DNA of 40,245 nt from Nostoc sp. GT001 (GTDB taxonomy: Bacteria > Cyanobacteriota > Cyanobacteriia > Cyanobacteriales > Nostocaceae): NCBI RefSeq assembly GCF_030382115.1, contig NZ_JAUDRJ010000003.1, positions 5,504,319 to 5,544,563 of the forward strand, read 5' to 3'. The position numbers and the translations under genes are program-made. The notes beneath the pieces were generated by a model. That model did no database searches. It was not told the DNA's origin and saw nothing but the letters and a program-made list of their open reading frames with translations. The first letter of the stretch is position 1. The number at the start of each line of letters is the position of its first letter. Below, piece by piece: positions 1,958-35,938 of the stretch.

Positions 1958-4543
1958 TTATTTTTCCTGAAATGTCCAGACTCCTTCATCCCAATCTGAT
2001 TCTGTTGGGGGTGATTGTAACCAATGCTGACAACGCAACAGATGCAACATAGCAGCTTTGTCCTGGCTGTCTGCTGCCAAAACATTAGCAAATTCAGCCC
2101 TGGCACGAGAAAACTGCCGCTGGAGGTAATACTCACGCCCTTTATGATAGTGTTCAATCACTTGCAATTTTTCGCTTTCAATCGGATTTGAACGCAAACC
2201 CAGTAATTCGTATATGGCTACTGGTTCGTTTCTACCCTTGACACGAATGTAATCTAGTTCCCTAGCCCAAATGTTTTCTTGGCATGGTTTAAAAGTGTTA
2301 TGGCTAATAATAATATCGCAACCATACTGTTTACTAACACTTTCTAATCGGGAGCCAAGATTAACGCCATCGCCAATGGCTGTAAATTCCATCCGTTTAC
2401 TAGAGCCAATATTCCCGCTAATCACGGTATCTGAGTTGATGCCAATGCCAATTTTAATTCTGGGCTTATCATCTGTATGGCGACGTTGATTAAATTCGTG
2501 TAGGCGATGGCGCATTTCTAAGGATGTTTGTACTGCCATCCAAGCGTGTTCTTCTAATGGTAGAGGAGAACCAAACACAGCCATGATGGCGTCGCCGATG
2601 TATTTATCAAGAGTGCCTTTATGTTTAAAGACTGCCTCCACCATTGATTCAAAATATTCATTGAGCATACTCACCACTTCTTCTGCTTCCAAGTTTTCTG
2701 TTAATGTGGTGTAGCCGCGAATATCGGAAAATAATATTGAAACTTCTTTGCGATCGCCTCCTAGTTTAGCATCATCTAATTTCAGCAATTCTTCGGCTAA
2801 TTCCTGGGTCATGTAGCGGTACATTGTACTCTTGAGCCGCTTTTCATCACTAATATCTTCCATCACCACCAGCGCCCCACGGACTTGCTCTTGGTCGCTA
2901 GCATCGGCAATTGTGTTAATCGATAAATTAATACTATGCTGTTCTGTACCAGTGCTTAAAAGTGTGCGATCTGGGTAATATTGCTGCCGGCCTTTTAAGT
3001 CAACTGCATGTAAAGCATCCTGATACCACTTGCTAAAGTCGCCTTCTTTGATGCCAATGACATCATTAACTAATTTACCTTCTAAACGGTCATCTACTCC
3101 CAATCCTAGTAAACGTTGGGCGCTTTCATTGGCGGCGATAATTAACCCAGTTTTATCAGTGGAAACCACTCCATTGGAAAGACTACGCAGAATATCCCGT
3201 TGCATTTGTTCTTGTTGCTTGACTGTGGCAAACAACTGAGCATTTTGCAGCGCGACTCCCGCTTGAATATTAAAAGCTTCCATGAACTCTTCATCGTTGC
3301 GGTCAAAGCTAGCTTGGAAGCAGTCAGGAGCTTTAGGCCAATCCGCTGGATTATAAGGTGGAAAATCCCCGGATTTCTTTTTATTTACGAGTTGGGTAAC
3401 GCCAATCAGTTGTTGATCGGCATTAAATACTGGCATACAAAGTAAGCTACAGGTGCGATAGCCATTTTGCTGGTCTAGTTTTTGGGCTGTCTCTGAGTCA
3501 GGATCGTAGTACAAATCAAAGCCAATATTTAACTTTTTGCCAGAAGCCGCGACTATGCCAGCAAAACCTTTACCTACGGGGACTCGTAACTCTTTCGTTG
3601 AACCATCATCCTGAGTGATTTTCGTCCACAATTCATGACGATCGCGGTCTATCAACCATAGTGTACTGCGATCGGCATTCATCAGTTCTTTGGCTTCATC
3701 CATCACCCGTTTCAGGGTATCTTCTAAGTCGAGACTACTTTGAGAGAGAGACTTAATCGCCTTCATCAGCGCCGCCACTGCTCTTTGTTTTTGGGTAGCT
3801 ACATAAAAAGAGCGCGAGGACTCTAAAATCAGGCAAATCGAAGGGGCAAATTCTTGAAATAATTGTTCGTCAGCACTGGTGAAACCTTTAGTATCAATGC
3901 GCTCTGCAAGTGGAGCATCGTGATTATTTTTAGATTTTAATTTATTCAGTAATTGTACTACTGCAACTAATTGCCCATGTTCATTTAAGAGTGGCAAAGC
4001 TAGCATGGTGTAGGTGCGATAGCCAGTTCTCTTTTCTTGTTCTTGGGCAAAATGCGATCGCGGATCGTTATAGAAATCAAAGGGGATATTAATAACTTCT
4101 TTAAAAGTGGCAACTTCACCACCAATGCCTTTATTAGCCGGGATGCGAATTTCTAAAGAGCGACCGCCCTCACCCTCAGCTAAAATTGACCAAAGTTCTT
4201 GCTTTTCTTCATCCAATAAAAATATCGTCGTCCGGTCTGCCCCCAGTAATTCCCCGGTTTTCAAGGTAATCGAATGCAACATTTCTTGCAGAATGGTTTC
4301 AAACCCCTGAGAATCGAGCATTGATAGGGTTTGATGAACAATCTGTAATTTTTGCTCAACATCCTGAACCACCTGTTTAAAAGTATCCTGAGTCAGGGGA
4401 GCAAGAAACGTAGAAAAAGTTCCTTGTCTTGTGGCAAGAGCACCCACAGGAGCAGATTTTGCTGGTAATTCGAGGTTTTCTTGGTTGTGAACACTAATAA
4501 TCACATCAGTGGTCTCCCCACAACTTCCTTGATACGCTGACAT
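1958..4543 (-). CDS. cyaB: CyaB-type class III adenylate cyclase (GAF-GAF-PAS-cyclase)
   Basis: 861 aa; makes cAMP from ATP. Domain order: GAF-A about 75-245, GAF-B about 265-445, PAS about 448-570, class III cyclase about 595-785, then a short TPR-like tail. Catalytic residues are all visible: metal aspartates D607 (LFSDIRGYT) and D651 (YIGDAIMAVFG), purine-specifying K647 and T721 (EFTAIGDG), and transition-state N728 and R732. K plus T indicates ATP rather than GTP. In Anabaena CyaB1/CyaB2 the GAF tandem binds cAMP and activates the enzyme by positive feedback. Length and GAF-B wording (NADRSTLWLIDRDRHELW) agree closely with that pair, but I cannot tell B1 from B2. No transmembrane segment. 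It is monocistronic, with a long divergent spacer upstream. Confidence 0.93.
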   Translation of the reverse strand: MSAYQGSCGETTDVIISVHNQENLELPAKSAPVGALATRQGTFSTFLAPLTQDTFKQVVQDVEQKLQIVHQTLSMLDSQGFETILQEMLHSITLKTGELLGADRTTIFLLDEEKQELWSILAEGEGGRSLEIRIPANKGIGGEVATFKEVINIPFDFYNDPRSHFAQEQEKRTGYRTYTMLALPLLNEHGQLVAVVQLLNKLKSKNNHDAPLAERIDTKGFTSADEQLFQEFAPSICLILESSRSFYVATQKQRAVAALMKAIKSLSQSSLDLEDTLKRVMDEAKELMNADRSTLWLIDRDRHELWTKITQDDGSTKELRVPVGKGFAGIVAASGKKLNIGFDLYYDPDSETAQKLDQQNGYRTCSLLCMPVFNADQQLIGVTQLVNKKKSGDFPPYNPADWPKAPDCFQASFDRNDEEFMEAFNIQAGVALQNAQLFATVKQQEQMQRDILRSLSNGVVSTDKTGLIIAANESAQRLLGLGVDDRLEGKLVNDVIGIKEGDFSKWYQDALHAVDLKGRQQYYPDRTLLSTGTEQHSINLSINTIADASDQEQVRGALVVMEDISDEKRLKSTMYRYMTQELAEELLKLDDAKLGGDRKEVSILFSDIRGYTTLTENLEAEEVVSMLNEYFESMVEAVFKHKGTLDKYIGDAIMAVFGSPLPLEEHAWMAVQTSLEMRHRLHEFNQRRHTDDKPRIKIGIGINSDTVISGNIGSSKRMEFTAIGDGVNLGSRLESVSKQYGCDIIISHNTFKPCQENIWARELDYIRVKGRNEPVAIYELLGLRSNPIESEKLQVIEHYHKGREYYLQRQFSRARAEFANVLAADSQDKAAMLHLLRCQHWLQSPPTESDWDEGVWTFQEK

Positions 4544-7200: not shown

Positions 7201-9540
7201 GTGCAAGAAGATTTTCGGTTAATTGTTGATTTAGTTTTAGTTCTAGGCGTTGCAGCCTGTGGCGGACTATTGGCGGCACTTTTGCAACAACCCGTGCTGC
7301 TGGGATATCTTATTGGCGGGATAGTCATTGGGCCAACGGGACTGGGATTGATTAAAGAACTGATTCAAGTAGAGACTCTGGCACAGTTCGGGGTAGCCTT
7401 TTTGTTATTCGCCTTGGGTGTGGAATTTTCCTTTGCGGAACTCAAGAAGGTAAAAGCGATCGCTCTTGGTGGAGGTGGACTCCAGATTGCTTTGACGATT
7501 TTGGTCACGGTTTTAGTATGCGGGTTAAGCGGAGCCTGGGGAGCCTTACCTGCTAAGGGGATGTTTTTAGGGTGTATTCTGTCCCTGTCTTCCACAGCAG
7601 TTGTCCTCAAGTGCTTGATGGAGCGCAATGAAACAGAAACGCCCCACGGGCAAGTGATGCTCGGAATTTTAGTTGTCCAGGACTTGGCACTGGGACTAAT
7701 GTTAGCAGTCTTACCAGCCCTCAACCAACCAGCAGAAACTATTGGCATTGCTGTCCTAACAGCGCTAGCTTCGATTGCTTTATTTGCTGCTGGGGCTATA
7801 GCTGCGGGGATTTGGCTGATACCGCCTTTGTTGCAACTGCTAGCCCGTACCGAAAGTAAAGAACTATTTTTATTAGGGGTTGTAGCCCTGTGTTTGGGCA
7901 TTGCCCTGTTGACAGAGCATTTGGGACTGTCCATTGAAATGGGGGCATTTGTCGCGGGTTTGATGATTTCTGAGGTAGAGTACGCCGACCAAACCCTGAC
8001 TTATGTCGAACCACTGCGAGATATCTTTGCCAGTTTGTTTTTTGCCGCCATTGGGATGTTAATTGACCCAGTGTTTTTGTGGAACAACCTGGAATTAATT
8101 TTGGGATTGGTGACACTAGTTTTCTTGGGTAAATTTTTGATTATCACGCCCTTAGTGAAACTGTTCCGCTATCCTTTGAAAACAGCCATAATTGCTGGTT
8201 TAGGATTGGCGCAAATTGGGGAATTTTCCTTTGTTCTCGCTAGTGAAGGGCAGTCTTTGGGGCTGGTGTCTCGACAAATATACTTATTAATTTTGGGAAC
8301 CACCGCAGTTACTCTGATGCTTACTCCCTTTGTATTGCGGTTAGTGCCATTTTTATTTAACTTTGCCGAATCAATGCCCTGGTTGAAACCGTACTTAGAA
8401 GAAGATGAGGCGCGGGATGTATCGGAAGATTTGCCCTTCAAAGACCATGTAGTTGTTTGTGGCTATGGGCGAGTCGGCAAGAATTTGGTGAAGTTGTTGC
8501 AGCAACATGACCTACCTGTGGTAGTTATCGACCAATCAGAGAGTAGAATTCAGCAGTTGCGTGAGGCTGGGGTATCTTATGTTTATGGCAATTGCGTCAG
8601 TTTACACGTTCTGGAAACCGCCGGGGTGAATCACGCCAAAGGAATGGCGATCGCACTTCCTGACCCTATGAGTACCCGTCTTTGTTTGAAACGCGCTTTG
8701 GAATTGTGCCCAGAATTAGATTTGGTTGTCCGTGCTACCCAGGATAAAAATATTGAGGTGCTGTATCAATTGGGAGCCAGGGAAGTTGTGCAACCAGAGT
8801 TTGAAGCCAGCTTAGAAATGGCAACCTATTTATTAACTGGCTTAGGCTTGTTGTCGCCACCTGTCGTACAACGAGAAATGCAGCAAATCCGCAACGATCA
8901 TTACTTAGATTTGCGCCCAGAGCGCTCTGCAACTGAAGTTGCTCGTGATTTGCGCCAAGCTACGCGCGATTTAAATCAGCGCTGGTATCCTTTACCATCC
9001 AATTCGCCCTTAATTGGTATGAGCATAGAAGAAGCGGATATGCGCTATTTAACAGGAGTGAGTTTGATGGCGATTCGCCGCGCTAACGGCGAAGAAATTG
9101 ATTATCCCAACAATCAAACCAAATTGGCAGAAGGCGATCGCTTGTTAGTAGTAGGGGCTGATGAAGAACTAGCAGCTTTGGCAGAATTTGCCAAGGGACA
9201 AGCGGCTGTTCCCGGAGAAAATAGTGCTTGTCAGTGGGTTACAGTCAATGCAGATGCACCAACACTAGGTAAAACCCTTGCAGATTTAGATATCGCCAAG
9301 CAATTTGGAGTACAGGTACAGGCGATCCGGCGAGATGGTAAATTTATCCGCTATCCTGATGGCGGCATGGATTTGCGAGTCGGCGACCAAGTATTATTAT
9401 GTGGTGGCTTGACAGGTTTGAGTCAACTAGAACAGTTATTTGCGATCGCTAGTTCAGTACCCCTTTCGATCCCAGTGCTGAAAGCTGGTGAGGCAGAAAC
9501 GCTCAAAGACTTTCTACCTGCGGATAGTGTGACTGATTAA
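7201..9540 (+). CDS. KefB-type CPA2 cation/proton antiporter with RCK domains
   Basis: 779 aa. Residues 1-390 form a polytopic Na+/H+-exchanger-type domain of about 12 membrane helices, with the conserved transport aspartate D161 in VVQDLALG. Residues about 413-540 are a TrkA-N/RCK Rossmann domain (GYGRVG, 421-426) with an acidic residue ending strand 2 (VVVID). Two TrkA-C domains follow at about 595-670 and 685-770. Family members exchange K+ or Na+ for protons across a membrane, gated by nucleotide binding to RCK. Having two TrkA-C copies is common in cyanobacterial CPA2 proteins. The start codon is GTG at 7201, just before the first hydrophobic helix. The ion cannot be assigned from sequence. 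It appears monocistronic. Confidence 0.9.
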   Translation: MQEDFRLIVDLVLVLGVAACGGLLAALLQQPVLLGYLIGGIVIGPTGLGLIKELIQVETLAQFGVAFLLFALGVEFSFAELKKVKAIALGGGGLQIALTILVTVLVCGLSGAWGALPAKGMFLGCILSLSSTAVVLKCLMERNETETPHGQVMLGILVVQDLALGLMLAVLPALNQPAETIGIAVLTALASIALFAAGAIAAGIWLIPPLLQLLARTESKELFLLGVVALCLGIALLTEHLGLSIEMGAFVAGLMISEVEYADQTLTYVEPLRDIFASLFFAAIGMLIDPVFLWNNLELILGLVTLVFLGKFLIITPLVKLFRYPLKTAIIAGLGLAQIGEFSFVLASEGQSLGLVSRQIYLLILGTTAVTLMLTPFVLRLVPFLFNFAESMPWLKPYLEEDEARDVSEDLPFKDHVVVCGYGRVGKNLVKLLQQHDLPVVVIDQSESRIQQLREAGVSYVYGNCVSLHVLETAGVNHAKGMAIALPDPMSTRLCLKRALELCPELDLVVRATQDKNIEVLYQLGAREVVQPEFEASLEMATYLLTGLGLLSPPVVQREMQQIRNDHYLDLRPERSATEVARDLRQATRDLNQRWYPLPSNSPLIGMSIEEADMRYLTGVSLMAIRRANGEEIDYPNNQTKLAEGDRLLVVGADEELAALAEFAKGQAAVPGENSACQWVTVNADAPTLGKTLADLDIAKQFGVQVQAIRRDGKFIRYPDGGMDLRVGDQVLLCGGLTGLSQLEQLFAIASSVPLSIPVLKAGEAETLKDFLPADSVTD

Positions 9541-9683
9541 GCTTTAAGACTCTGCAAGCTAAGTGGCTCAATATAGCGATCGCGCCTTTGGGATGGTAGT
9601 GATTTGGCTATTTGGGGTGCTTTTTCATATTCTTTTAGGATAATAAGCTAAAAAACATCTCATTTGCATAATCGAATTAAATA

Positions 9684-9786
9684 TATAGCAACGGACAGGG
9701 AGCTTAGGACAGCAATAAAATCACAAAGTACGCTGTTGAAGACGCATTTCCCGCAAACTGTCCTAACGGCTTTGGCAACTGCTATA
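9684..9786. repeat. Small palindromic MITE-like repeat
   Basis: About 103 bp with imperfect 29-nt terminal inverted repeats (9684-9712 versus 9758-9786). The outer 7 nt (TATAGCA) and inner 9 nt (TTAGGACAG) pair perfectly, with 20 of 29 positions matching overall. No coding content. Confidence 0.45.
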
Positions 9787-10240
9787 ACTCTTGTGGGGTG
9801 GGCATCTTGCCCGCCCAGTTTATGCAATTTAAATGTGGAACAGCTTACCAGATCCAAGATGTTCTCTCTGATGCGGACATCATCATGGATTGAGTAATTT
9901 GCAGCTCAGTTTTGGTAACAGTCCATCCGTAAGAGCTTAAAAGGATGTTTGAAAAGTGGTTGCGGGGTAAGGCGACAAATCAAGCTTGAGGACTGGCGAT
10001 CTTTTGCCCTTGACTACTCTAAATTTTGATTATCTTTTGCAGAAAAATATTTAATTGGGTCATCTGCTTGATCTTTGTCAATCGCAGAATTTTTCGGTCT
10101 ACTGAATTTGATTATCTTGTTTGATAACTGAATTTATCTAAGAATTGAGCTTTACTTTTTACAAATTTCTTCTATCTTTACAATACTTTTTTATCTCATA
10201 TTTTCAGTTATCAGATACTTTGGCGATAATGATAATTACT

Positions 10241-10258
10241 GTACTGTATTTACAGTAC
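10241..10258. promoter_or_regulatory. Perfect dyad, possible operator
   Basis: GTACTGTA-TT-TACAGTAC is a perfect 8-bp inverted repeat with a 2-bp spacer, 178 bp upstream of the GAF-GAF-GGDEF start codon. The symmetry fits binding of a dimeric regulator. I cannot name one; it does not fit the NtcA (GTA-N8-TAC) or the cyanobacterial LexA spacing. Confidence 0.35.
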
Positions 10259-10436
10259 TTTATCCAAAATTATTTGTGAGAACGCTTTTTAAGACTTAAT
10301 GGCAAAAGTCAGATGAAGAGAAGCGATCGCGTAACAAAGTTTCGCGATAATGGTTATAAACTAAGAAAAACTACGTTTTTATATCGTTGTAGCTGTATCT
10401 TTTCATCTTGAAAATATTACTGAAATTATACTTATA

Positions 10437-12221
10437 ATGTTGTACACAAGTTTACGTATTATTACGAGAGCATCTGCTAATCTACTCTGTAAGCTTTTAG
10501 GACAGCCTAGTGTTAGTAATTTAGAAACTCAACTCTATGATAAACAAGTTCAGATTCAGCAGCTAGAAGAGCAAGAAAGGGCGCTTTACCGAGTTATTAG
10601 CAAAATTCGAGCTTCTCTTGAATTAGAAACAATTTTTCGTACAGCCACTAAAGAAACTTGCAAGTTACTCCGAGTCGAACGGATTGCCGTTTATCGTTTC
10701 TATGAAAACTGGGGTGGAGAATTTGTCAGTGACTTTGAGTTTGCAGAGACTGGATGGGATGATGTAGAGACATTAGGAAAAAATACAGTTTGGAATGACT
10801 CTTATCTAAAAGAACATCAAGGTGGACGGTATCGTAATAATGAAACTTTAATTGCTTCAGATGTCTACGCAGCAGGCTTGTCTCAATGCCATTTAGAAAT
10901 TTTAGAACAGTTCCAGATTCAAGCTTATGCAACTGCACCAATATTTGTGGGAAAAAAACTGTGGGGAGTGCTTGCAGCTTATCAGCATTCACAGCCACAT
11001 GAATGGAAACAATTAGAAATTCAGTTTCTATCTCAGATTGCAACGCAGTTAGGATTTGCAGTTAAACAAGCAGAATTTTTAGCTCAAGCAGAACAAAAAG
11101 CAGCAGAACTGTATAAAGCAAATCAGCAGCAGGAGATTCTATTTAATTTAGTTGCTGAAATTCGTGAATCTCTGAATCTAGACACCTTGTTTAAGACTAC
11201 TGCACGAGAAATTCGTAAGGCTCTCCGTAGCGATCGCGTCAGTATCTTTCGATTTGACCCGGAATCGAACTATACCTCTGGTGAATTTGTCTCTGAGAAT
11301 GTCTTGCCTGACTACGATTCTACGATCACCATTAAGGTTAAGGATAATTGTTTTGCTGAAAACTATGCAGTTGCTTATCACCAAGGGCGTATACAGGTAT
11401 TATCAGATATTTATCAAGCTGGGCTAAAAGATTGCCACATTCAACTGTTAGAGCAATTTCAAATCAAGGCACAAATTGTTGCACCCCTAATGAAAGGAAA
11501 AACTTTATGGGGATTACTATGTGTTCATCAGTGCCATTGTTCGCGTGAGTGGAAAAAGTCGGAAATTCAATTTATCCACCAGTTAGCTGCTCAGTTTAAT
11601 GTAGCTTTAGAACATTCTGAGTTATTAGAGCAATTCCGCTCTCAAGCTAATCAACTTGCTCAAGCAAACAATGCTTTAGAACTAGCAAATTCTCAGTTAG
11701 AAAAACTTAGTAAGCTAGATGCTCTAACCCAAATCGCCAACCGTCATTGTTTTGATCAGTTTTTAGAGCAGGAATGGGATCGACTAAAACTAAGCGAAAA
11801 TTATTTATCTTTAATTATATTTGATATTGACTATTTCAAGGATTATAACGATTCTTATGGGCATTTAGCTGGTGATGAATGCTTAATACAAGTTGCTCAG
11901 GCAGCACAATCTGTATTAAAGCGTCCTACCGATCTACTAGCTCGTTATGGTGGTGAAGAATTTATTGTAATTTTGCCAAATACGAACGAATCAGGTGCGA
12001 TTAAAGTAACTAAGCTGATTCAAAAATCTATTCAAGAATTAAAGATTACCCATAAAAAGAAGAGTAACTTTCAATATTTTGTGACCGTCAGTTTAGGTGT
12101 GGCAATTCAAAAACCAACAGATAAAAGTTCAGCTCAAGACTTAATTAATGCAGCTGACAAAGCTTTGTATAAAGCTAAAGAACAAGGACGCAATCGGTGG
12201 GTTTGTGCTGCAAAATTCTAA
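10437..12221 (+). CDS. Cyanobacteriochrome-like GAF-GAF-GGDEF diguanylate cyclase
   Basis: 594 aa, predicted soluble. GAF1 about 50-215, GAF2 about 232-398, a short coiled coil, then GGDEF about 425-590. The cyclase looks active: GGEEF at 505-509, metal site FDIDYFK, and an inhibitory I-site R496-x-x-D499 at the correct spacing, so c-di-GMP synthesis with product inhibition is expected. Both GAFs have the bilin-lyase-type Cys-His at the canonical place (C151-H152 and C333-H334, each followed by a LEQFQI segment). GAF2 also has D303-N304-C305-F306, a DXCF motif exactly 28 residues before C333, the spacing of known blue/green DXCF cyanobacteriochromes. GAF1 has DSYL there and lacks the second cysteine. 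Chromophore binding is inferred. Start ATG, no clear Shine-Dalgarno. Confidence 0.88.
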   Translation: MLYTSLRIITRASANLLCKLLGQPSVSNLETQLYDKQVQIQQLEEQERALYRVISKIRASLELETIFRTATKETCKLLRVERIAVYRFYENWGGEFVSDFEFAETGWDDVETLGKNTVWNDSYLKEHQGGRYRNNETLIASDVYAAGLSQCHLEILEQFQIQAYATAPIFVGKKLWGVLAAYQHSQPHEWKQLEIQFLSQIATQLGFAVKQAEFLAQAEQKAAELYKANQQQEILFNLVAEIRESLNLDTLFKTTAREIRKALRSDRVSIFRFDPESNYTSGEFVSENVLPDYDSTITIKVKDNCFAENYAVAYHQGRIQVLSDIYQAGLKDCHIQLLEQFQIKAQIVAPLMKGKTLWGLLCVHQCHCSREWKKSEIQFIHQLAAQFNVALEHSELLEQFRSQANQLAQANNALELANSQLEKLSKLDALTQIANRHCFDQFLEQEWDRLKLSENYLSLIIFDIDYFKDYNDSYGHLAGDECLIQVAQAAQSVLKRPTDLLARYGGEEFIVILPNTNESGAIKVTKLIQKSIQELKITHKKKSNFQYFVTVSLGVAIQKPTDKSSAQDLINAADKALYKAKEQGRNRWVCAAKF

Positions 12222-12350
12222 GTCTAGTGACGAAGAATAGGGGTTCAAAAAGAGGGAGGGAGCAGGGGGATTGAAACCCTTACTCCACTTAGTTTTGCGG
12301 CAGGGTAGAAGAAGTATTCACCCTGCTACTGTGATTTTTCTGCCTCACTC

Positions 12351-12569
12351 CTAACCCACTTGCGGCTTGATGTAGGCGATCGCTTGTTTCCAAACGGTGG
12401 TTTGCTGGCTATTTTCATCAGCAATACAGATACACTGTGGATCTTGCCATAAAACCTTTCCTGTGAGTACATCCTGAGTCACCAGCTTTAACTCAACTGG
12501 CGTTGTTTGTTTAATCAGGTTTTGGACTTGTCTAATACTGGGTAAAGTGGTGTCAAATTCAGTAAGCAT
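12351..12569 (-). CDS. hfq: Hfq RNA-binding protein (cyanobacterial type)
   Basis: 72 aa starting MLTEFDTTLPS. It matches cyanobacterial Hfq throughout, including LKLVTQDVLTGKVLWQDPQC and the C-terminal WKQAIAYIKP. The reading frame extends 32 codons further upstream, but those residues do not resemble Hfq and would run into the dapF start, so I choose the ATG at 12567-12569. Cyanobacterial Hfq is a short Sm-fold protein; in Synechocystis it is needed for motility and binds the pilus ATPase PilB1 rather than showing strong sRNA binding (family knowledge). It diverges from dapF with about 70 bp between starts, a pairing I recall from other cyanobacteria. Confidence 0.92.
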   Translation of the reverse strand: MLTEFDTTLPSIRQVQNLIKQTTPVELKLVTQDVLTGKVLWQDPQCICIADENSQQTTVWKQAIAYIKPQVG

Positions 12570-12638
12570 TTTTAGTAAAGATGAACCTACAAGGCAAAAT
12601 AAAGAGTAACTAATCCTTGATAATTCATCCTTGAAGAA

Positions 12639-13478
12639 ATGGCAATCGAATTTACTAAGTATCATGGTCTAGGCAACGACTTTATTTTGATTGACAATCG
12701 CTCGTCATCGTTGCCTATAGTGACTCCAGAGCAAGCGATCGAGTTGTGCGATCGCCATTTTGGTATCGGTGCTGATGGTGTCATTTTTGCCCTCCCCGGA
12801 GAAAACGGCACTGACTACACCATGCGGATTTTTAATTCCGATGGTTCAGAACCAGAAATGTGTGGCAACGGCATTCGCTGTTTAGCTGGCTTTTTGGCAG
12901 ACTTAGAAGGCGAATCCCGAAATCAAGACTCATATCGCATTCATACTTTGGGTGGTGTAATGACTCCCCAACTCTTATCAGATGGTCAAGTTAAAGTAGA
13001 TATGGGTTTACCCAGGTTACTCGCTAGCGAAATTCCTACCACCCTTGTACCCAATGAAGAAAAAGTAATTTCTCAGCCGTTAGAGGTGGCGGGGCAAACT
13101 TGGGATGTCACCTGTGTAAATATGGGAAATCCTCACTGCATTACCTTTGTGGAAGATGTCGCAGCAATTGAGTTAGAAACCATCGGCCCAAAATTTGAGC
13201 ATCACCCAGCTTTCCCGCAACGCATAAATACTGAATTTATTCAAGTGGTACGCCGTGACTATTTGAAAATGCGGGTGTGGGAACGGGGTGCTGGGATTAC
13301 CTTAGCTTGTGGTACTGGTGCTTGTGCTTCTTTAGTAGCTGGAGTGTTAACCGGGAAATGCGATCGCATCGCCACTGTAGAATTACCAGGTGGTCCCTTA
13401 CAAATTGAATGGTCAGAAGTAGACCAACGGATTTACATGACAGGCCCGGCTGAAAAGGTATTCACTGGTAAACTGTAA
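12639..13478 (+). CDS. dapF: Diaminopimelate epimerase
   Basis: 279 aa. Interconverts LL- and meso-diaminopimelate in the lysine and peptidoglycan pathway, in the cytoplasm. The two catalytic cysteines sit in their signatures: C75 in MCGNGIRC and C224 in [10 protein letters not shown]. The protein is full length with the normal N-terminus ([11 protein letters not shown]). Start ATG at 12639. Transcribed divergently from hfq across a short shared promoter region. Confidence 0.97.
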
Positions 13479-17150: not shown

Positions 17151-18275
17151 TCAATTCCCGATTGGTAGTGTTATTTCAAACTCAGAGCCTTGTCCTAAAG
17201 TAGAATTTACTACCAAAGTACCTTCATGTTTTTCAACTATAATTTGTCGAGCGATCGCTAATCCTAATCCTGTGCCTTTGCCGACAAGTTTAGTAGTAAA
17301 TAAATGATCAAAAATTCGTTTTTTTACCTCATCATTCATCCCAATACCGTTGTCAGAGATTTTAATTTTTACATATTTATCGTTATGCACTGATGTTGTA
17401 ATAATAATCCGATTAATATTAGACTCGATCTCATTAAAGGTGTATCCTTGGTTAGATTCTTCTAAGGCATCAATGGCATTTGCTAGCAAATTCATAAATA
17501 CCTGATTGAGTTGCCCAGGAAAACATTCTACTTGGGGAATATCGCCGTAGTTGGTAATGACTTCAATTGCTGGATGTTGTTCATTAGCCTTCAGGCGATG
17601 TTTCAAAATTAAAATAGTGCTATCAATACCTTCATGGATGTTAAACGGAACTTTGTAATCCTTATCTGCACGTGAGAAAGTTCGCAAGCTAGTGCTGATA
17701 TTTTTAATGCGATCGCACCCCACGTCCATAGATTTAATCATTTTGGGTACGTCTTCTAGGAGATAATCAATCTCAATCTCCTGGGCATGTTGTTCAATTT
17801 CTGTTGTAGATGCGCCAGAACGGTACAATTGCAAGTGTTCAATAATATCTTCTAATCCCAACTTCGCTTCGTTGACGTTTCCAGCGATAAAGCCAATTGG
17901 GTTATTTATTTCGTGGGCGACACCTGCAACTAAATTCCCAAGGGCTGACATTTTTTCGCTTTGGACAATTTGTAATTGGGCTTTTTGTAAGTCTTCAATT
18001 GCTTGTTCTAGTTGTTGAGATTTTTGCTGGACGACAGCTTCGGCAGCTTTGCGATCGCTAATGTCTAAAATTAAACCATCCCAAACAATTGCACCATCCA
18101 CTTGCATCTCTGGGCGAGATGCCCCTTGCACCCATTTCATAGTTCCTGATGGCGTGATGATTTGCCATTCATGAACAAACGGTGTCAGATTTTGGGCAGA
18201 TTCCATCATTGCTTGCTCGATACCAGCAATATCATCGGGATGTTCTAGAGAACGAGGGTTTTCTTTGCTTGACAA
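17151..18275 (-). CDS. Histidine-kinase half of a frameshifted Ser/Thr-His hybrid kinase
   Basis: 374 codons in the frame +1 to the preceding 5' part. It begins inside a PAS domain (HPDD...WQIITPSG...LDISDRK), then a coiled coil, HisKA with the phosphoacceptor in GNLVAGVAHEINNP (H121 of this fragment), and a complete HATPase: N-box NLLANAID, G1 ISDNGIGM, G2 GKGTGLGLAIA. Autokinase activity looks intact. There is no receiver. The fragment's apparent start (TTG at 18275) is only the first usable codon after the frame change; the domain it opens is half a PAS. It is probably the 3' end of one 1947-codon gene starting at 22974. Confidence 0.85.
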   Translation of the reverse strand: MSSKENPRSLEHPDDIAGIEQAMMESAQNLTPFVHEWQIITPSGTMKWVQGASRPEMQVDGAIVWDGLILDISDRKAAEAVVQQKSQQLEQAIEDLQKAQLQIVQSEKMSALGNLVAGVAHEINNPIGFIAGNVNEAKLGLEDIIEHLQLYRSGASTTEIEQHAQEIEIDYLLEDVPKMIKSMDVGCDRIKNISTSLRTFSRADKDYKVPFNIHEGIDSTILILKHRLKANEQHPAIEVITNYGDIPQVECFPGQLNQVFMNLLANAIDALEESNQGYTFNEIESNINRIIITTSVHNDKYVKIKISDNGIGMNDEVKKRIFDHLFTTKLVGKGTGLGLAIARQIIVEKHEGTLVVNSTLGQGSEFEITLPIGN

Positions 18276-21200
18276 TTATTTCCTCTGCTGTCACTTCGTA
18301 AAGGTTATAGCAGCCAGAACTAATATAGGGCATAGAAGCCAAGTTATCTGCTGTCACATGGAGTTGATAAATAGCTCCAGGAAGATTATCGGCAACTTTC
18401 TGGAAACGGGCTTCGCTTTGCTGAAGATTCGCGTAAAGCCGAGCATTTTCTAAAGAAATTGCCGCTTGAGTACAAAGGAAATTCAATACTAAAATGCGAT
18501 CGCTGGTAAATACCCCACTCGTTAAATGATTTTCTAAGTATAAAATTCCTACTAAACGCCCCTGATTGAGTATCGGTAAACACAGCACACTCTGAGGTTG
18601 ATGCTGAATTAAATAATCATCAACTATCGGTAAAGTAGTTTTGAGATCGTCAATCACAACCACATTAGCTGTATTTTTCACATACTGAATCAGCGCAATC
18701 GGAACATTAGGATTATTTTCGAGCGGTTCTAATTTTAAGCTAGTGCTATCAAGGGTAGTAATTGCGCGTATTTGCCATTTCCCATCTTCAGGTAAAAGCA
18801 GGGCACATTTATCAGCACCAGCATTTTCGAGGATGATTTGGGTTAGTTGTTGTAAAAATTCATCGAGTTGAATTGTTGCAGAAAGAGTTTGCGACGCTCT
18901 GAGGATAGCGCTCAAGTCAAGTATGTTGTTGATGTTGCTACCGGAAGAAGTCGCGGTACTAGTAAATGAGTTGATTGGGTTAGCAATTGTTGCTAAGGCC
19001 TCTAACAGATTTACTGTTGGTACTGTCTGTTGCGAAATTGGATGCAGCAATTGTGGGTAACGTTTTTCTAAGTCATCTGTCTTGGCTTTGGCTCCCCAGC
19101 GGGCATAGCCAGAGTAAGCTGCCTGCATATAGGCTTGGGCGACTTTTTCTTTGCCCCAGTTCAGGTAGAATTTGGCAGCGAGTTCGTTAGCGAGAGCTTC
19201 ATCTTGGAGGAAGCCGTTTTCCTTGGCTTTAGTGATGGCGCGATCGTAAAAGTCCATTGCTAGGGCGCGTTCGCTAATAGCATACCGTTCGGCTTCCACC
19301 AAATCCCAACGGTGTTGATGGTTACAGGGAGCAAATGCTGCCCATCTTTGCATTTTCTCTTGATTCGCCTCGACTTGGGCGAGAATCTGTTGCTGTTCTG
19401 ACTCAGCTGCGGCTTTGTAAACTGCCAGATGAATCAAAGAATCGTAGAAAAAATACAGAGCAACACTAAATTGGGCGATACCAGCATCTAAGTATTGCTT
19501 CGCTTGGGCAGACTGTTGGGCAGCTTCTTGATACTGCCCAAACAAATACCAGAGAATCGTTTGATTAACTTGCCAATAAAATAATCCCGTTCGGTCTTGG
19601 GTTGCCTGATTCAGGGATAATCGTTGTTCTGCATGATAAATCGTTCCCGTTAAGCGATCGGGAGATTGGCTATGTCCTAGCAAGTTGAGTACAGCTTGAT
19701 AAGCAATCTCCAGATATTGCAGCGGCGATTCTTGCTTGAGTGAATAGATGCTTTGGCGATAGGCTGCCATTTCATTCGCCAACCCAGTTAATTCTCGCCC
19801 CGCAAAATAAGCATAGTGACAGTAAGCTTGGGCATTCAATGCTGTACTATCCAAATCTCCAGTTTCCAGTCCATTTTGGTAGCCCTCTTGCAGATGCACA
19901 AGTTGTTCGCGCAATGGGTCTTTCCAATGACGGATAAAGTAGTAGACGATAAAGTAGGTTCTGGATTTAAAGATTTTGGACTGCAACTGTTCCAGCAGGT
20001 TTAACGCCAATTGTCCAAACTCATAACCACCTTCCAGATTACCAAGCACACCACAGAGGATGATGCCGTAGTCGGCATAAGCATAGACAGAAATAGGACA
20101 AGTACCATATTTAATCGAAAATTCTACTTGTTTGAATATCAGTAGAGGCATTAAAGCTGGTCTTGCAAGATAGGCAGCCGGAATCATTCTGCTCATGATG
20201 CTCATAGCTGCCAAGCGGTGAGCATCTTTCATAGTGGATAAATTGAGCAAATCCAGAGAAGAACGTCCTTCCCATAACTCCATAGTTGCTTCACCTGCTC
20301 GTCCAATATCTGCCGCAGTTGATTGTTGAGGAAACTCAATATCCAACAGTTGCAACACCTGCAAGCCAATATTCAGCGTTTTCAATGGAAGACCTTGCGA
20401 TCTTCCTGCCATCATTCTGGTTACATATATGGGAATGCTGTCGAGCAAGGTCTTAGCGTGTTGCAACACAATTGTTACCCATTGTTCCATCTGCTCAAAA
20501 TCGGCGTTGAGATAGGTGGCTTCAGTTACCTCGATATACAGCGCCAGGGTCAAGTCATAGTGGCTTTCCCAGGAAGAATGGGATAGCAAACTAATTCCCA
20601 CGGTCAGATACTCGACGGCTACTGTGTATGTAGTTGCAGATTTTGCTCTCCGTCCTGCGCTCAGATTTAATTGTGCCAGTTCTTGCCGCTTTGAAGGTTC
20701 AGTGATTAAGGAACTACCTGCGTTTAAATGAGTGACAATTTCAAATAGTCGTTCTTCTCGTTCTAAATCTGAGGAATTGCGTAACAATAACATCCCAATT
20801 TTATAATGGGTGGCTTGCTTTTGGTCGTCTGGAATCAGCGAGTAGGCAGCTTGTTGAACGCGATCGTGTAAGAATTTGTATCCAGCATTTGGGGAAGTTT
20901 GTTGAGTAAATATTTGTTCTTCTTGCCCAACATAAAACTTATAAACTTCACTTTGGGGCAAAATTAAACCTTCTTGTAAACCATTCCATAAACAAGCTGC
21001 TGTTTCGGTTTCCGACTGTTCAGAAACGATCGCCAATGTTGCTAAATCAAACTGATTACCGATGCAAGCAGCTAACCTTAGAGTCTGTTGAGTTGATTCT
21101 GGCAGCCTCCGTAATTGAAATGCCATGAATTCCAAAACATTATCTGTCAGAGATTGCTGATTGATTTTTGCAATATCACATTGCCAGCAGCCTTCTGCAA

Positions 21201-22974
21201 AGTTAAAGATAATCAACCCATCTTGGTACAAAGCTTTAATAAACTGTGTTGCAAAAAATGGATTTCCCTGAGTTTTTTGAAACACTAATTGTGAAATGGG
21301 TAATGCTAATTCTTCTTTGCAACCTAATGTATCGCTTACTAACTGATTCAATTGTAATTGACTTAAAGGTTGCAGAGTCATCAAGTTAATAGTCGTGCCT
21401 ATTTTTCTTACCTCATCTAAAGTTGACATTAACGGATGGGCAGGTGATACTTCGTTATCTCTATAAGCACCAATTAGTAATAAATATCCAGAGTTTGACT
21501 CATTCATTAGTAATTGGAGCAATTTTAATGAAGCTAAATCTGCCCATTGCAAATCATCTAGAAAAATAACTAAGGGATGTTCTTTTGTAGTAAAAACTTG
21601 AATAAAGCTTTGCAATAATAAATTAAATCTATTTTGCGCCGCTTCTGCTGATAATTCTGGTGTCGGTGGTTGTTTACCGATAATTTTTTCTAATTCGGGA
21701 ATAACTTCAACGATTATCTGTCCATCGTCTCTTAATGTTGCCAGGATATTTTTTTTCCATTGTTGCAGTTGTTGATCGGTTTCTGTTAATAACTGCACTA
21801 TTAAATCACGCAAGGATTGCACAAAGGCAGATAAGGGAATATTCCGGTTAAACTGGTCAAATTTACCTTTGATCAAATAACCGCGTTGCCGAACGATTGG
21901 TTTATGAACTTCATTCACCACCGCAGTTTTACCAATGCCAGAAGAACCAGCAATTAACATGATTTCACGCTTTCCCAGAGAAACCCTCTCAAAAGCTTCT
22001 AAGAGTTGTTGGACGGCTGTTTCTCTCCCATATAATTTTTCTGGGATAATGAAGCGATGTCTACGACGGTCTACGCCTACGCAAATATCCCGTTGTCCAA
22101 TTTGGAAGTATTTAATCTGACCAGTTTCGTTCAGTTGACAGAGACAATTTTCTAAATCGTGTTTTAACCCTAAAGCATTTTGATAACGATCTTCAGCATT
22201 TTTCGCCATTAGTTTTATGACAATATCTGACAACACTTCCGAAATCTCTTCACTTTTAACTTCCCGGAGGGATGGTGGCTGTTTGGCAATATGACAATGC
22301 ACCAACTCCATTGAATCTTCTGACTCAAAGGGTAATTGTCCTGTGATTAGTTCAAAAAATGTCACACCCAAAGAATAAAAGTCACTGCGGTAGTCTATTC
22401 CCCGGTTCATGCGTCCAGTTTGTTCGGGAGATAAATAAGCCAAAGTTCCTTCTAAAACCTTGGGACTGATCGTAGTTTGGTTTTCTCTGGGAAGCAAAGA
22501 AGCAATGCTAAAATCGATGAGTTTTACTTGTTTGGTTTGCGGGTTAATCAGAATATTAGTCGGTTTGATATCTTTGTGAATTACCCGTTCTTGATGGAGT
22601 TCATGGAGAATATGACTAAGTTGCAGGGCGATTGTGAAAAATTCCACAAGTTCTAGTGATTGAGTTTTGGTATATTCTCTCAGAGAAATTCCCCCAAAAT
22701 CTTCCATTACTAAAGCATAACTATTGCGATATGCTTCTAGACTATAGGGACGAACAATACTAGGAATATTTAAATTTTTGGCAATGGTATATTGGTTCCG
22801 AAACTGCAACAGTTCGTTAAAAGTAGGGGATTCGACTTGCAGTATTTTAATGACAACAGGTTGTTCATCGACCAGTCGGATGGCTCGATAGACTATGGTT
22901 TTGGAACCTTGGTAGAGTGTTTCTATTAATTTATAGCCGCTTATGCTATAAACTTCATAAATTGCTGTTGTCAT
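18232..22974 (-). CDS. Ser/Thr kinase-AAA-GAF part of a frameshifted hybrid kinase
   Basis: The frame opens at a TTG (22995), but the ATG at 22974 has GAGAG suitably upstream, so I start there. Domains (numbered from that ATG): Ser/Thr kinase about 8-270 with K43, HKD 133-135 and DFS 154-156 in place of HRD and DFG, as is usual in cyanobacterial hybrid kinases; a STAND/AAA ATPase with P-loop GSSGIGKT 343-350 and Walker B FLDDLQWAD about 471-479; a long helical TPR-like region about 600-1320; GAF about 1350-1500; then half a PAS that ends in wrong-frame residues. Members of this architecture (HstK-like) sense unknown signals. Removing one A from AATAATT near 18277 fuses it cleanly to the histidine-kinase half. 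Confidence 0.88.
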   Translation of the reverse strand: MTTAIYEVYSISGYKLIETLYQGSKTIVYRAIRLVDEQPVVIKILQVESPTFNELLQFRNQYTIAKNLNIPSIVRPYSLEAYRNSYALVMEDFGGISLREYTKTQSLELVEFFTIALQLSHILHELHQERVIHKDIKPTNILINPQTKQVKLIDFSIASLLPRENQTTISPKVLEGTLAYLSPEQTGRMNRGIDYRSDFYSLGVTFFELITGQLPFESEDSMELVHCHIAKQPPSLREVKSEEISEVLSDIVIKLMAKNAEDRYQNALGLKHDLENCLCQLNETGQIKYFQIGQRDICVGVDRRRHRFIIPEKLYGRETAVQQLLEAFERVSLGKREIMLIAGSSGIGKTAVVNEVHKPIVRQRGYLIKGKFDQFNRNIPLSAFVQSLRDLIVQLLTETDQQLQQWKKNILATLRDDGQIIVEVIPELEKIIGKQPPTPELSAEAAQNRFNLLLQSFIQVFTTKEHPLVIFLDDLQWADLASLKLLQLLMNESNSGYLLLIGAYRDNEVSPAHPLMSTLDEVRKIGTTINLMTLQPLSQLQLNQLVSDTLGCKEELALPISQLVFQKTQGNPFFATQFIKALYQDGLIIFNFAEGCWQCDIAKINQQSLTDNVLEFMAFQLRRLPESTQQTLRLAACIGNQFDLATLAIVSEQSETETAACLWNGLQEGLILPQSEVYKFYVGQEEQIFTQQTSPNAGYKFLHDRVQQAAYSLIPDDQKQATHYKIGMLLLRNSSDLEREERLFEIVTHLNAGSSLITEPSKRQELAQLNLSAGRRAKSATTYTVAVEYLTVGISLLSHSSWESHYDLTLALYIEVTEATYLNADFEQMEQWVTIVLQHAKTLLDSIPIYVTRMMAGRSQGLPLKTLNIGLQVLQLLDIEFPQQSTAADIGRAGEATMELWEGRSSLDLLNLSTMKDAHRLAAMSIMSRMIPAAYLARPALMPLLIFKQVEFSIKYGTCPISVYAYADYGIILCGVLGNLEGGYEFGQLALNLLEQLQSKIFKSRTYFIVYYFIRHWKDPLREQLVHLQEGYQNGLETGDLDSTALNAQAYCHYAYFAGRELTGLANEMAAYRQSIYSLKQESPLQYLEIAYQAVLNLLGHSQSPDRLTGTIYHAEQRLSLNQATQDRTGLFYWQVNQTILWYLFGQYQEAAQQSAQAKQYLDAGIAQFSVALYFFYDSLIHLAVYKAAAESEQQQILAQVEANQEKMQRWAAFAPCNHQHRWDLVEAERYAISERALAMDFYDRAITKAKENGFLQDEALANELAAKFYLNWGKEKVAQAYMQAAYSGYARWGAKAKTDDLEKRYPQLLHPISQQTVPTVNLLEALATIANPINSFTSTATSSGSNINNILDLSAILRASQTLSATIQLDEFLQQLTQIILENAGADKCALLLPEDGKWQIRAITTLDSTSLKLEPLENNPNVPIALIQYVKNTANVVVIDDLKTTLPIVDDYLIQHQPQSVLCLPILNQGRLVGILYLENHLTSGVFTSDRILVLNFLCTQAAISLENARLYANLQQSEARFQKVADNLPGAIYQLHVTADNLASMPYISSGCYNLYEVTAEEIIVKQRKPSFSRTSR

Positions 22975-23480
22975 GGTTATGCTCTCAATAATCAAGACTG
23001 CTGACCAAAAGTTAAACTTTTAGCAGCACATATATCGTTATTGTTCCCAAAATCAGGGTTTGTTTTTCAAGGATATGATAATAAGCTGATGTGCAAATAC
23101 TCTTACGCAAAGACACGGAGATGCTATTTGAATGACGATTAGCTGACTAAAAATTTTATTAATTCATCACCTATTAGGCATTTCTAGAAATTAATTATTA
23201 TCCATAAGCCTTGTAGAGACGTAGCAGTGTTACATCTTTATATTCTCTTTGCATTTCTTTGCGTTTAAAAAAGCTACGAATTTATGCAAAACTGTACTTA
23301 GTGTTCAAAAAAGAATTGAAACCTTTGCCTGAAAGTGAATCAGCACTCCTGAACTGATTCGCTATTTGACAAATGGTTCACCCGATTGGGTGAATGCGAT
23401 CGCAGCATCCAGAACTACTCTGAAAGTAGAGCCACTTTTTTGCTGTTAGTGATTTCGCCGACAGCTAAAAAACTTTTACA
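22975..23480. other. Divergent spacer between two kinase genes
   Basis: About 500 bp without a credible gene. A TTGTAGAGACG repeat fragment lies near 23211. Promoters for both kinases should lie here, but I see no distinct operator or riboswitch. Confidence 0.4.
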
Positions 23481-33790: not shown

Positions 33791-34855
33791 GTTCGTATTT
33801 CTTACAACAATCGTGATAAAAATTCTGACATTGATGATTTAGTTACAAAAGTCAGAAGGAAGAGACGGAGTAGCATCCAAAAGTTGTACGGCACTATGCG
33901 CGTGCTGGATATGGATCAACCTATTGGGTTAGAAGAGGTATATACAAATGTTAATATCCTTGAAAGAATTATTAGCCGTCGTCGTCTAGGTCTTTCAGAC
34001 TTGCAACAGAATTGTAATCAAGTTAATTTTGATCGATTTGGTCTTGGAAGGATATCTGAAAAACGGGTAATTGGCACTAAAGCTGTAGAAAAATATTCAA
34101 AATTAGTAGTTTTAGGTAAGCCAGGAGCAGGTAAAACCACTTTTTTGAAATATTTAATAATTCGATGCAATTTAGGTGATTTTCAAGCTGATAAAGTTCC
34201 TATTTTTATTACTTTAAAAGATTTTACTGAAACGGATCAACTATCGGTAAAGCTTGGTGCTGAGAACTCTAAAGAATACCCAAGTTTATTAGATTATATT
34301 TTTTTACAATTTGCCAAAAATAATGTTACTTCTGATCAGGTAGAAAACATATTAACCCAAGGTAGAGGATTGATATTACTTGATGGATTAGATGAAGTTA
34401 GAGAGGAAGATTCTAGTAGAATTATCAAACAGATTAAAGATTTTTCTGAGCAATTCAATACTAATTGGTTTGTTATAACTTGCCGTATTGGAGCAAAAGA
34501 ATATGTATTTGAACATTTTACAGAAGTAGAATTTGCAGATTTTGATATAAATCAAATATGTACTTTTGCAAAAAAGTGGTTCCAAATTAAAGATGTAATT
34601 AAAGTTGATAAGTTTATTCAAAAACTGAAAGGAAATGAACCAATACAAGAATTAGCAACTAGTCCTCTCTTGCTGACATTACTATGTTTAGTTTTTGGGG
34701 AAAAAGCAGATTTTCCTTCTAATCGTTCAGAACTTTATAAAGAGGGTTTAGATATTCTTTTGAAAAAATGGGATGCAAAACGTAATATTGAACGGGATAA
34801 AATATATGAGCAATTATCCTTGCAGCGTAAAGAAGACCTACTCTATAGAGAATGA
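33791..34855 (+). pseudogene. NACHT-family NTPase, N-terminal remnant (NTPase core)
   Basis: The frame opens after a TGA at 33788-33790, and the homologous reading (NNRDKNSDIDD...RSSIQKLYGTMRVLD) starts upstream of any ATG or GTG, so the 5' end with its effector domain is lost. From the TTG at 33884: Walker A GKPGAGKTT 78-86, Walker B LILLDGLDEV 163-172, sensor FVITCRIG about 196-203, and LATSPLLLTLLCLVF. This matches the STAND/NACHT proteins abundant in cyanobacteria, some relatives of which act in phage defence (bacterial NLR-like). It stops at tandem TGATGA right after QRKEDLL, where the winged-helix part should begin. Confidence 0.8.
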
Positions 34856-34858
34856 TGA

Positions 34859-35938
34859 AGATTTACAAAACTTTTTAAACTGGATAATCAAATTATAGAT
34901 TTTGCTAAACAGCTTGCTACAGACTTAATTTTTGAAGAAACAATAACAATTAGCCTTGAGAATCTTCGAGAACTTATTGTAGAACTAGATTTTGATTTTG
35001 GTTCTACTATTAATCCAGATCGAACACTTGCCTTTGCAATCGATAATGATCTCACTGTTAACAGGAATGGAGAACTTGCTATTCAAGAATTTAATGAAAT
35101 TCATGATTTGGATAATATGACTTCCATTGAGGCAATTGAAGATGAATTTGGTTTGCTTGAAGACATTAGTTCCAATATTTTAGAAATTGAGACTGAAAAT
35201 ACTGAATATATGGCTGATATAGAAGAACTTGAAGCAAAACGTGCAATTTTAAAAAAACAAGTTCAAGACATTGAAAAAGAACGATTAAAAGCCGAAGAAG
35301 ATGAAATTGATGAAATTAAAGATACATTAGAAGAAATTAATGATGAACTTGAAGGAATAAATGAGAAGATAGATTCTGACAAAGAAGAGATTGAGGAATT
35401 AAAAGAAAAGTTACAATTTTTACTAGATAAAGCCAATATTGATATAGGATATATAACAATTGAAGATGAAAGCATTTTTGAAGAGATACGCTCAGAAATT
35501 GAATTAAAGCTTCAAACTCTTGACAAGCGCCTTAGTGAACTCAGAAAACAAGAATCTCAACAGGAGTTCGATTCTAACTTATCTCTTAATAGTTTACTGT
35601 CTAATTTATTATTAGAAGTTAAAGCACAATTGCCCGATCCAGGTATTTTTGGAATATCGTTTGAAAACTGGTGGTTGGAGAAAGGGCCAGATTGGGCTGA
35701 AAAATTAAGAAATCTGGTATGTAAATTAATCATTGATTTCCGTAACTTGGGATATGATTGGCAATTCAATAATCAACAAATGAAACTATTAAATCAATAT
35801 TATGATGGGAATAAGTTATTAGTCGATTGTCTTAATAGCGATTGTTATATGAGTCGCCCAATTCGTGAGAAAGTTGAGGGAACCTTACTATTACCTATTG
35901 CTGAAATTGAGCAAAGTCACTCTTATAGAAAAGTTTAG
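34859..35938 (+). pseudogene. NACHT-family protein, C-terminal remnant with acidic coiled coil
   Basis: The frame is open from 34859 to 35938 (first ATG 35108), in the same frame as the NTPase remnant but after two stops. The end (FENWWLEKGPDWAEKLRNL...FRNLGYDWQF...LLVDCLNSDCY...EGTLLLPIAEIE) is the helical tail typical of cyanobacterial NACHT proteins. Before it lies a strongly acidic coiled coil of about 140 residues (EEINDELEGINEKIDSDKEE). Another frame at about 34848-34898 reads NDEDLQNFLNW, also typical of this family. So the region between NTPase and tail has lost roughly 150-250 codons. It might still be translated from 35108 as a small coiled-coil protein, but I see no Shine-Dalgarno. 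Confidence 0.7.

Follow-up and report, generated by a model that had tools for sequence, protein, structure and literature searches.

Broad-spectrum diguanylate cyclases based on cyanobacteriochromes (CBCRs) were reportedly surveyed, to judge by the title of the work, by Blain-Hartung, Rockwell and Lagarias in 2021. In phytochrome cyclases, one chromophore domain and a PHY domain without chromophore suffice; IsPadC (5llw), a phytochrome with a single chromophore, follows the same order of sensor, sensor-like domain, helix and GGDEF domain as the protein described here. The blue-activated SesA (Tlr0924), as portrayed in the accessible parts of its literature, resembles our protein in placing a DXCF-type CBCR GAF domain before a GGDEF domain with an I-site and in the 28-residue spacing of its cysteine pair. 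According to the relevant section of PMC5812497, however, SesA has only one CBCR GAF, whereas our protein has two. The red/green (XRG) domains AnPixJg2 and Slr1393g3 share the WXDXXL motif, the Cys-His pair and a clade with the first of these (GAF1), but here the output is a cyclase and a second CBCR domain (GAF2) stands between sensor and output. CBCR cyclases and colour-diverse CBCR arrays as such are already known (sections of PMC5812497, PMC9614035 and PMC5871770), and a passage of one review puts composite CBCR receptors that combine several colours into one output as 'likely' (PMC9614035). No description of our protein was recognised in searches of the open-licence literature, a weak negative given that most CBCR biochemistry papers lie outside it. 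Leptolyngbya Dgc2, considered as an orthologue, was discarded, being a CHASE2-PAS-GGDEF protein in the part of PMC10581220 that describes it.

We analysed a 40,245-nt stretch of DNA (the window) from a 7.9-Mb assembly of six contigs; the nearest named homologues of the cyclase encoded there are from Nostoc. A sequence-only reading had proposed a single open reading frame (ORF) with two CBCR GAFs and a GGEEF diguanylate cyclase domain, and this architecture was confirmed by the ORF, its motifs, Pfam (two GAF stretches and a GGDEF domain on the 594-aa protein), phmmer and a phylogenetic tree (Table 1). C151-H152, C333-H334, D303-N-C305-F306, R496-P-T-D499 and G505-G-E-E-F509 all lay at the residues given by that reading. 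These motifs are not due to chance, since nearly all of the 120 homologues that we studied (those listed out of 678) retain them. The reading also held in that Pfam found no PAS family at E ≤ 0.001, and neither Pfam nor the predicted secondary structure speaks against the claimed absence of a transmembrane module; the gene product is probably soluble. Moreover, the tree placed both GAFs among CBCRs, the reverse of the outcome that the reading had named as fatal to it. We observed the motifs, clade membership, conserved spacing and intact active-site motifs described below, and we consider it quite likely that the gene encodes a diguanylate cyclase controlled by two successive bilin photoswitches, in which bilin binding, colours, dimerisation, sign and integration are all predictions.

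Table 1. Features of the two-sensor cyclase gene (window positions; residue numbers are those of the protein)
Feature	Position	Strand	Basis
Complete ORF, 594 aa, GAF-GAF-GGDEF	10437..12221	+	ATG start
N-terminal region, residues 1-46	10437..10574	+	model helix 2-20 and beginning of helix 26-58
GAF1, residues 47-222, XRG-type (red/green) CBCR domain	10575..11102	+	PDB phmmer, tree, pocket residues
WXDXXL motif W119-N-D-S-Y-L124 of GAF1	10791..10808	+	sequence, homologue alignment
Canonical bilin Cys151-His152 of GAF1	10887..10892	+	sequence, homologue alignment
Long helix 192-244, GAF1-GAF2 link	11010..11168	+	model, pLDDT 64-68 from ~221 on
GAF2, residues 229-395, DXCF-type CBCR domain	11121..11621	+	PDB phmmer, tree, pocket residues
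Phe284, beta2 trapped-twist position of GAF2	11286..11288	+	pocket alignment, homologue counts
D303-N-C305-F306, second-cysteine motif of GAF2	11343..11354	+	sequence, homologue alignment
Canonical bilin Cys333-His334 of GAF2	11433..11438	+	sequence, homologue alignment
Phe341, alpha4 trapped-twist position of GAF2	11457..11459	+	pocket alignment, homologue counts
Long helix 374-425, GAF2-to-GGDEF linker	11556..11711	+	model, linker analysis
GGDEF domain, residues 426-590	11712..12206	+	Pfam, Foldseek
I-site R496-P-T-D499	11922..11933	+	sequence, homologue alignment
Active-site motif G505-G-E-E-F509	11949..11963	+	sequence, homologue alignment

GAF1 had been described as a single-cysteine sensor with D121-S-Y-L in place of a DXCF motif. 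The description is correct as far as it goes: the residue equivalent to the DXCF cysteine is Tyr123, and C151-H152 is present without the second cysteine. However, it missed that these four residues are part of W119-N-D-S-Y-L, a WXDXXL motif, which is given as the mark of XRG CBCRs in the accessible portion of PMC11284453, and GAF1 is more than a single-cysteine sensor, namely a standard XRG domain. When residues 47-223 were searched against the PDB with phmmer, the closest chains were 6bhn, 5zoh, 3w2z (AnPixJg2) and 5dfx (Slr1393g3). A maximum-likelihood tree was built from 103 GAFs, comprising 20 family members (out of 121 rows including the query), 34 GAFs of the same genome, six PDB references and GAFs from six of eight non-cyclase relatives; the 34 were what was left of 67 domain matches once the query, two orthologues and any pieces that were short, long or duplicated had been set aside. 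In this tree the GAF1 family formed one clade (support 100/99) within an XRG clade of 56 rows (100/99) that also holds three solved XRG domains, AnPixJg2, 6bhn and Slr1393g3. GAF1 would most likely bind phycocyanobilin (PCB) at Cys151 and switch between a red-absorbing 15Z and a green-absorbing 15E state. Biliverdin binding, by comparison, is not favoured: 5zoh is a biliverdin-bound AnPixJg2 variant that differs from AnPixJg2 (3w2z) at four positions, and GAF1, with Y/L/L/T there, matches it at only one of them (Tyr123). Slr1393g3 has Y/L/F/T, and the putative tuning residues of GAF1 resemble this set. In seven of the 120 listed homologues (P0029, P0062, P0070, P0075, P0078, P0083 and P0113), the WXDXXL motif of GAF1 contains D-C-Y-L, with the cysteine one residue before the position of the second DXCF cysteine; some XRG domains of this kind might form a second bilin link there.

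For GAF2, the 28 residues from C305 to C333 were confirmed, as was the identity of this spacing with that of Tlr0924, for which Cys-499 and Cys-527 are named in the section of PMC4223177 concerned. The sequence-only reading had gone on to liken GAF2 to TePixJ and SesA. Its broader statement, two CBCR sensors of different class with a cyclase carrying all motifs, stood, whereas the likeness held for the motif spacing only, since clade and trapped-twist residues set GAF2 apart from TePixJ. In the phmmer search against the PDB, residues 223-401 matched best to 6oap, a dual sensor kinase, followed by the XRG chains 6bhn, 5zoh and 3w2z, with RcaE and TePixJ scoring below these three. The GAF2 family formed one clade (100/98) within a DXCF clade of 30 rows (100/99) in the 103-GAF tree, together with the DXCF domains of L081, L082 and L098 from the same genome. 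TePixJ grouped with L094, also of this genome (99/88), in a separate supported clade. The best trees joined the GAF2 clade to the XRG domains, with 90/85 for 103 rows and 95/95 for a 78-row tree from which three long-branch rows had been removed and in which nine family members were retained. However, a topology that unites the clades of GAF2 and TePixJ survived an AU test on the 78-row set (p 0.496), and the idea that the data exclude kinship between GAF2 and TePixJ was dropped.

The two trapped-twist positions are Phe/Phe in GAF2 and Val/Leu in TePixJ. Both Phe284 and Phe341 are present in 103 of the 112 listed cyclase homologues, and the other nine lack one of them. A beta2 Phe and an alpha4 Phe characterise Teal-DXCF sensors in the available part of PMC5240096, which lists the first GAF of NpR1597 as Teal-DXCF and the second as insert-Cys. 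GAF2 thereby resembles Teal-DXCF CBCRs such as NpR1597g1, which is a further point of difference from SesA, and it groups with the first GAF of L098. In L098, a DXCF GAF precedes one whose inserted C-S-A-K fits the CXXR/K insert-Cys motif; domain order and motif make L098 a probable NpR1597 orthologue, on which the Teal placement of GAF2 depends. Because GAF2 lies in a clade separate from TePixJ and carries the two trapped-twist Phe residues, we give a blue/teal photocycle no lower odds than a blue/green one and in fact take it to be somewhat likelier; the preference is a modest one because the best trees and the AU test leave room for either wider kinship of the GAF2 clade. A blue/green GAF2 like those of SesA and TePixJ, which would make the protein a red/green plus blue/green sensor, therefore seems doubtful to us: it agrees with the shared DXCF motif, the 28-residue spacing and the AU result, yet it has to accommodate the separate supported clades, Phe rather than Val and Leu, and three XRG chains that outscore TePixJ. 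In the preferred blue/teal reading, GAF2 most likely binds a bilin at Cys333, a blue-absorbing dark state would arise by addition of Cys305 to C10, PCB would be converted at least partly to PVB, and the photoproduct would be teal (or green).

The layout of the protein is strongly conserved. There were 678 homologues at E ≤ 1e-40, of which we aligned the 120 listed ones; 112 of these are cyclases, and the remaining eight are not (P0117 is partial, and for the other seven kinase domains are present or listed). One cyclase row, P0088, has no GAF1, so that GAF1 counts are over 111. D303, C305, F306 and C333 are kept in 112 of 112 listed cyclases and W119, D121, C151 and H152 in 111 of 111 that have GAF1; a set of eight motif positions is intact in 105 of 112, and in 104 the GGEEF motif is as well. 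With the query included, C305 and C333 are 28 residues apart in 113 of 113 sequences, C151 and C333 are separated by 182 in 108 and C333 and E507 by 174 in 109. Pairwise distances of GAF1, GAF2 and GGDEF were correlated (r 0.76-0.81; none of 500 permutations was as high), and the three domains therefore appear to have travelled together, in what this comparison suggests is a stable unit. Against nine orthologues, dN/dS was 0.14-0.26 for the whole gene, and the N-terminal residues 1-46 had the highest value of six regions in eight of nine comparisons. GAF1 (0.09-0.27) and GAF2 (0.10-0.27) gave similar values, and the bilin residues of both are equally strictly conserved, which argues against one GAF alone driving the cyclase while the other binds bilin as a structural relay or tuner without a light effect of its own. 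We consider this arrangement unlikely, even though a long stretch of sequence separates GAF1 from the cyclase and the best Foldseek matches over the whole length are to phytochrome cyclases, which manage with one chromophore domain and a chromophore-free PHY domain.

GAF domains in general bind many ligands, and the light response is here a prediction; the two GAFs could accordingly sense redox or a ligand, with their cysteines as thiol switches. This is very unlikely, as both nest among CBCR domains that include solved ones, pocket residues beyond the cysteines are kept, and bilin-synthesis genes are present in the genome (three Fe_bilin_red and two haem-oxygenase matches above cut-off).

The cyclase domain is predicted to be active, with the GG[DE]EF motif, the catalytic residues and the I-site all present. 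Across 68 aligned cyclase rows, G506-E-E-F509, D463, D465, K468, N471 and D472 are invariant, and G505, R496 and D499 are at ≥ 90%. We modelled the protein with AlphaFold from an alignment of the query and 67 of the 120 listed homologues. Long helices between the domains were obtained with a mean pLDDT of 84.2 but a pTM of only 0.44; the poorly modelled parts were GAF1 residues 101-120 (pLDDT 55-64) and residues 221-250 (64-68). The six best Foldseek matches were chains of the phytochrome cyclase IsPadC over ~600 columns, with superpositions (TM ~0.3, rmsd ~16) that back the domain order and not the arrangement. The model also bears on whether GAF1 and GAF2, instead of being independent CBCRs, make up a GAF-PHY phytochrome pair of the Cph2 type, given that Cph2 begins GAF-GAF-GGDEF in the section of PMC5812497 that covers it. 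We regard this as extremely unlikely: GAF2 has a bilin cysteine and a DXCF motif of its own, groups with CBCRs and shows no long tongue hairpin in the model, where a short turn connects strands 345-353 and 356-365.

With two independent CBCRs as the preferred reading, both signals would travel along one helical spine, from GAF1 through helix 192-244 to GAF2 and on through a coiled-coil helix (374-425) to a GGDEF dimer, whose c-di-GMP synthesis would rise or fall accordingly, with feedback through the I-site. Against this, the hydrophobic period of the linkers peaks at 107 degrees, at the edge of the tested band, and not at the coiled-coil value of ~103. From Cys333 to the I-site there are 163 residues, against 149 in L083, a single-CBCR cyclase of the same genome, and 149 from Cys-527 to Arg676 in SesA, a figure that joins T. 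elongatus Tlr0924 and T. vulcanus SesA numbering from parts of PMC4223177 and PMC5871770. L083 also agrees with L086 of this genome in its Cys-to-GGE distance (160). The difference between our protein and SesA is exactly 14 residues, or two heptads, and because of this we predict that blue light would activate the cyclase through GAF2, with the same sign as in SesA. PadC linker lengths, similarly, mostly differ by heptads. A natural break of the heptad register, which tells against this reading, is found in the orthologues P0007 and P0008, which are 92% identical to the query (one is named Nostoc): the 27 residues equivalent to 394-420, in the GAF2-GGDEF linker helix, are missing from both, and 27 is not a multiple of seven. 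GAF1 could set the gain of the blue activation or gate it by the red/green ratio.

Homologous XRG and DXCF domains also stand side by side next to the output in histidine kinases (L081, P0036 and P0061), which differ from our protein in their HisKA/HATPase output (L081, P0038 and P0118) and in the loss of a GAF2 cysteine in some. This pair of sensors thus serves both cyclase and kinase outputs. The 182-residue spacing between XRG and DXCF recurs in L081 and in seven of the eight listed non-cyclase relatives, five of which keep both GAF2 cysteines while three have lost one. L081 is the closest paralogue in the genome, with an open frame of 1105 aa, three XRG GAFs, one DXCF GAF and HisKA/HATPase. 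In this kinase with four CBCR GAFs (G000:C3:4292946-4295282), the last, DXCF-type one keeps the second cysteine and has Pro in place of the canonical one.

More tentatively, and with somewhat less than even confidence, we propose a four-colour (red, green, blue and teal) coincidence sensor, in which two independent photoswitches on one rigid helical spine would jointly determine a single c-di-GMP output and just one mixture of colours would switch the cyclase fully on; the module would have been assembled once before spreading among filamentous and unicellular cyanobacteria, staying intact in cyclases and decaying in some kinase relatives. As judged from its sequence, the protein may offer a compact natural model of colour integration. 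Its array has just two unlike sensors, a simple enzymatic read-out and a nearly invariant spacing, and natural variants exist in the linker deletion of P0007 and P0008 and in kinase relatives that have lost GAF2 cysteines, so that the question of colour integration lends itself to direct testing. The protein is a candidate, too, for a multi-colour optogenetic tool based on c-di-GMP. As for c-di-GMP effectors, the genome, which has many GGDEF matches, gave no PilZ match at E ≤ 0.001 and one ComFB match.

Among 386 genomes from a sample across the phylum, three have the gene, and among 53 genomes of the genus, 20 do (E ≤ 1e-150, its own genome included in both; three and 25 candidates scored per genome, respectively), and its presence therefore varies within the genus. 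In nine orthologues of 91-96% identity, hfq and dapF lie downstream (dapF within 0.4-3.7 kb), with an antiporter gene upstream in eight. Neither flank was seen in ten others (~85% identity or less) within the examined flanks, some of which were short. In nine congeneric genomes without the gene, the antiporter gene and dapF are 0.3-6.3 kb apart in six and not so in three. Of three further genomes with the gene, one (G387) keeps the three genes together; the antiporter gene lies elsewhere in G405, and the cyclase gene does so in G399. The distribution is patchy and may reflect gain, loss or both. A plasmid search with the whole protein gave <60% identity for all 5000 matches listed. We looked for a gene partner, and no operon was evident around the cyclase gene. 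A promoter and terminator scan of 9500-12700 gave sites no commoner than in shuffled sequences (8 versus a mean of 9.1, and 1 versus 2.0), and Rfam at gathering thresholds found nothing in the window.

Several neighbouring genes merit a brief description. An Hfq-family gene (PF21979; 12351-12665, minus strand) is tail-to-tail with the cyclase gene across a 129-bp gap and head-to-head with dapF; its listed start overlaps dapF, so that translation probably begins further inside the frame. A second cyclase gene, at 1958-4543 (minus strand) and about 6 kb away from the first, encodes an adenylate/guanylate cyclase that contains a PAS domain and two GAF stretches. We rejected a bilin-type adenylyl cyclase here, as its GAFs barely match the CBCR profile (best domain 6.1 bits). 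At 33884-35938 (plus strand), two successive ORFs encode first NACHT and then NACHT C-terminal helical domain 2, and together they may be a split STAND gene. Finally, at 17151-22995 (minus strand), a Ser/Thr kinase-AAA-GAF ORF (18232-22995) overlaps a PAS-histidine-kinase ORF (17151-18275) by 44 bp; the two are either overlapping genes or parts of one hybrid kinase gene that a frameshift has split.
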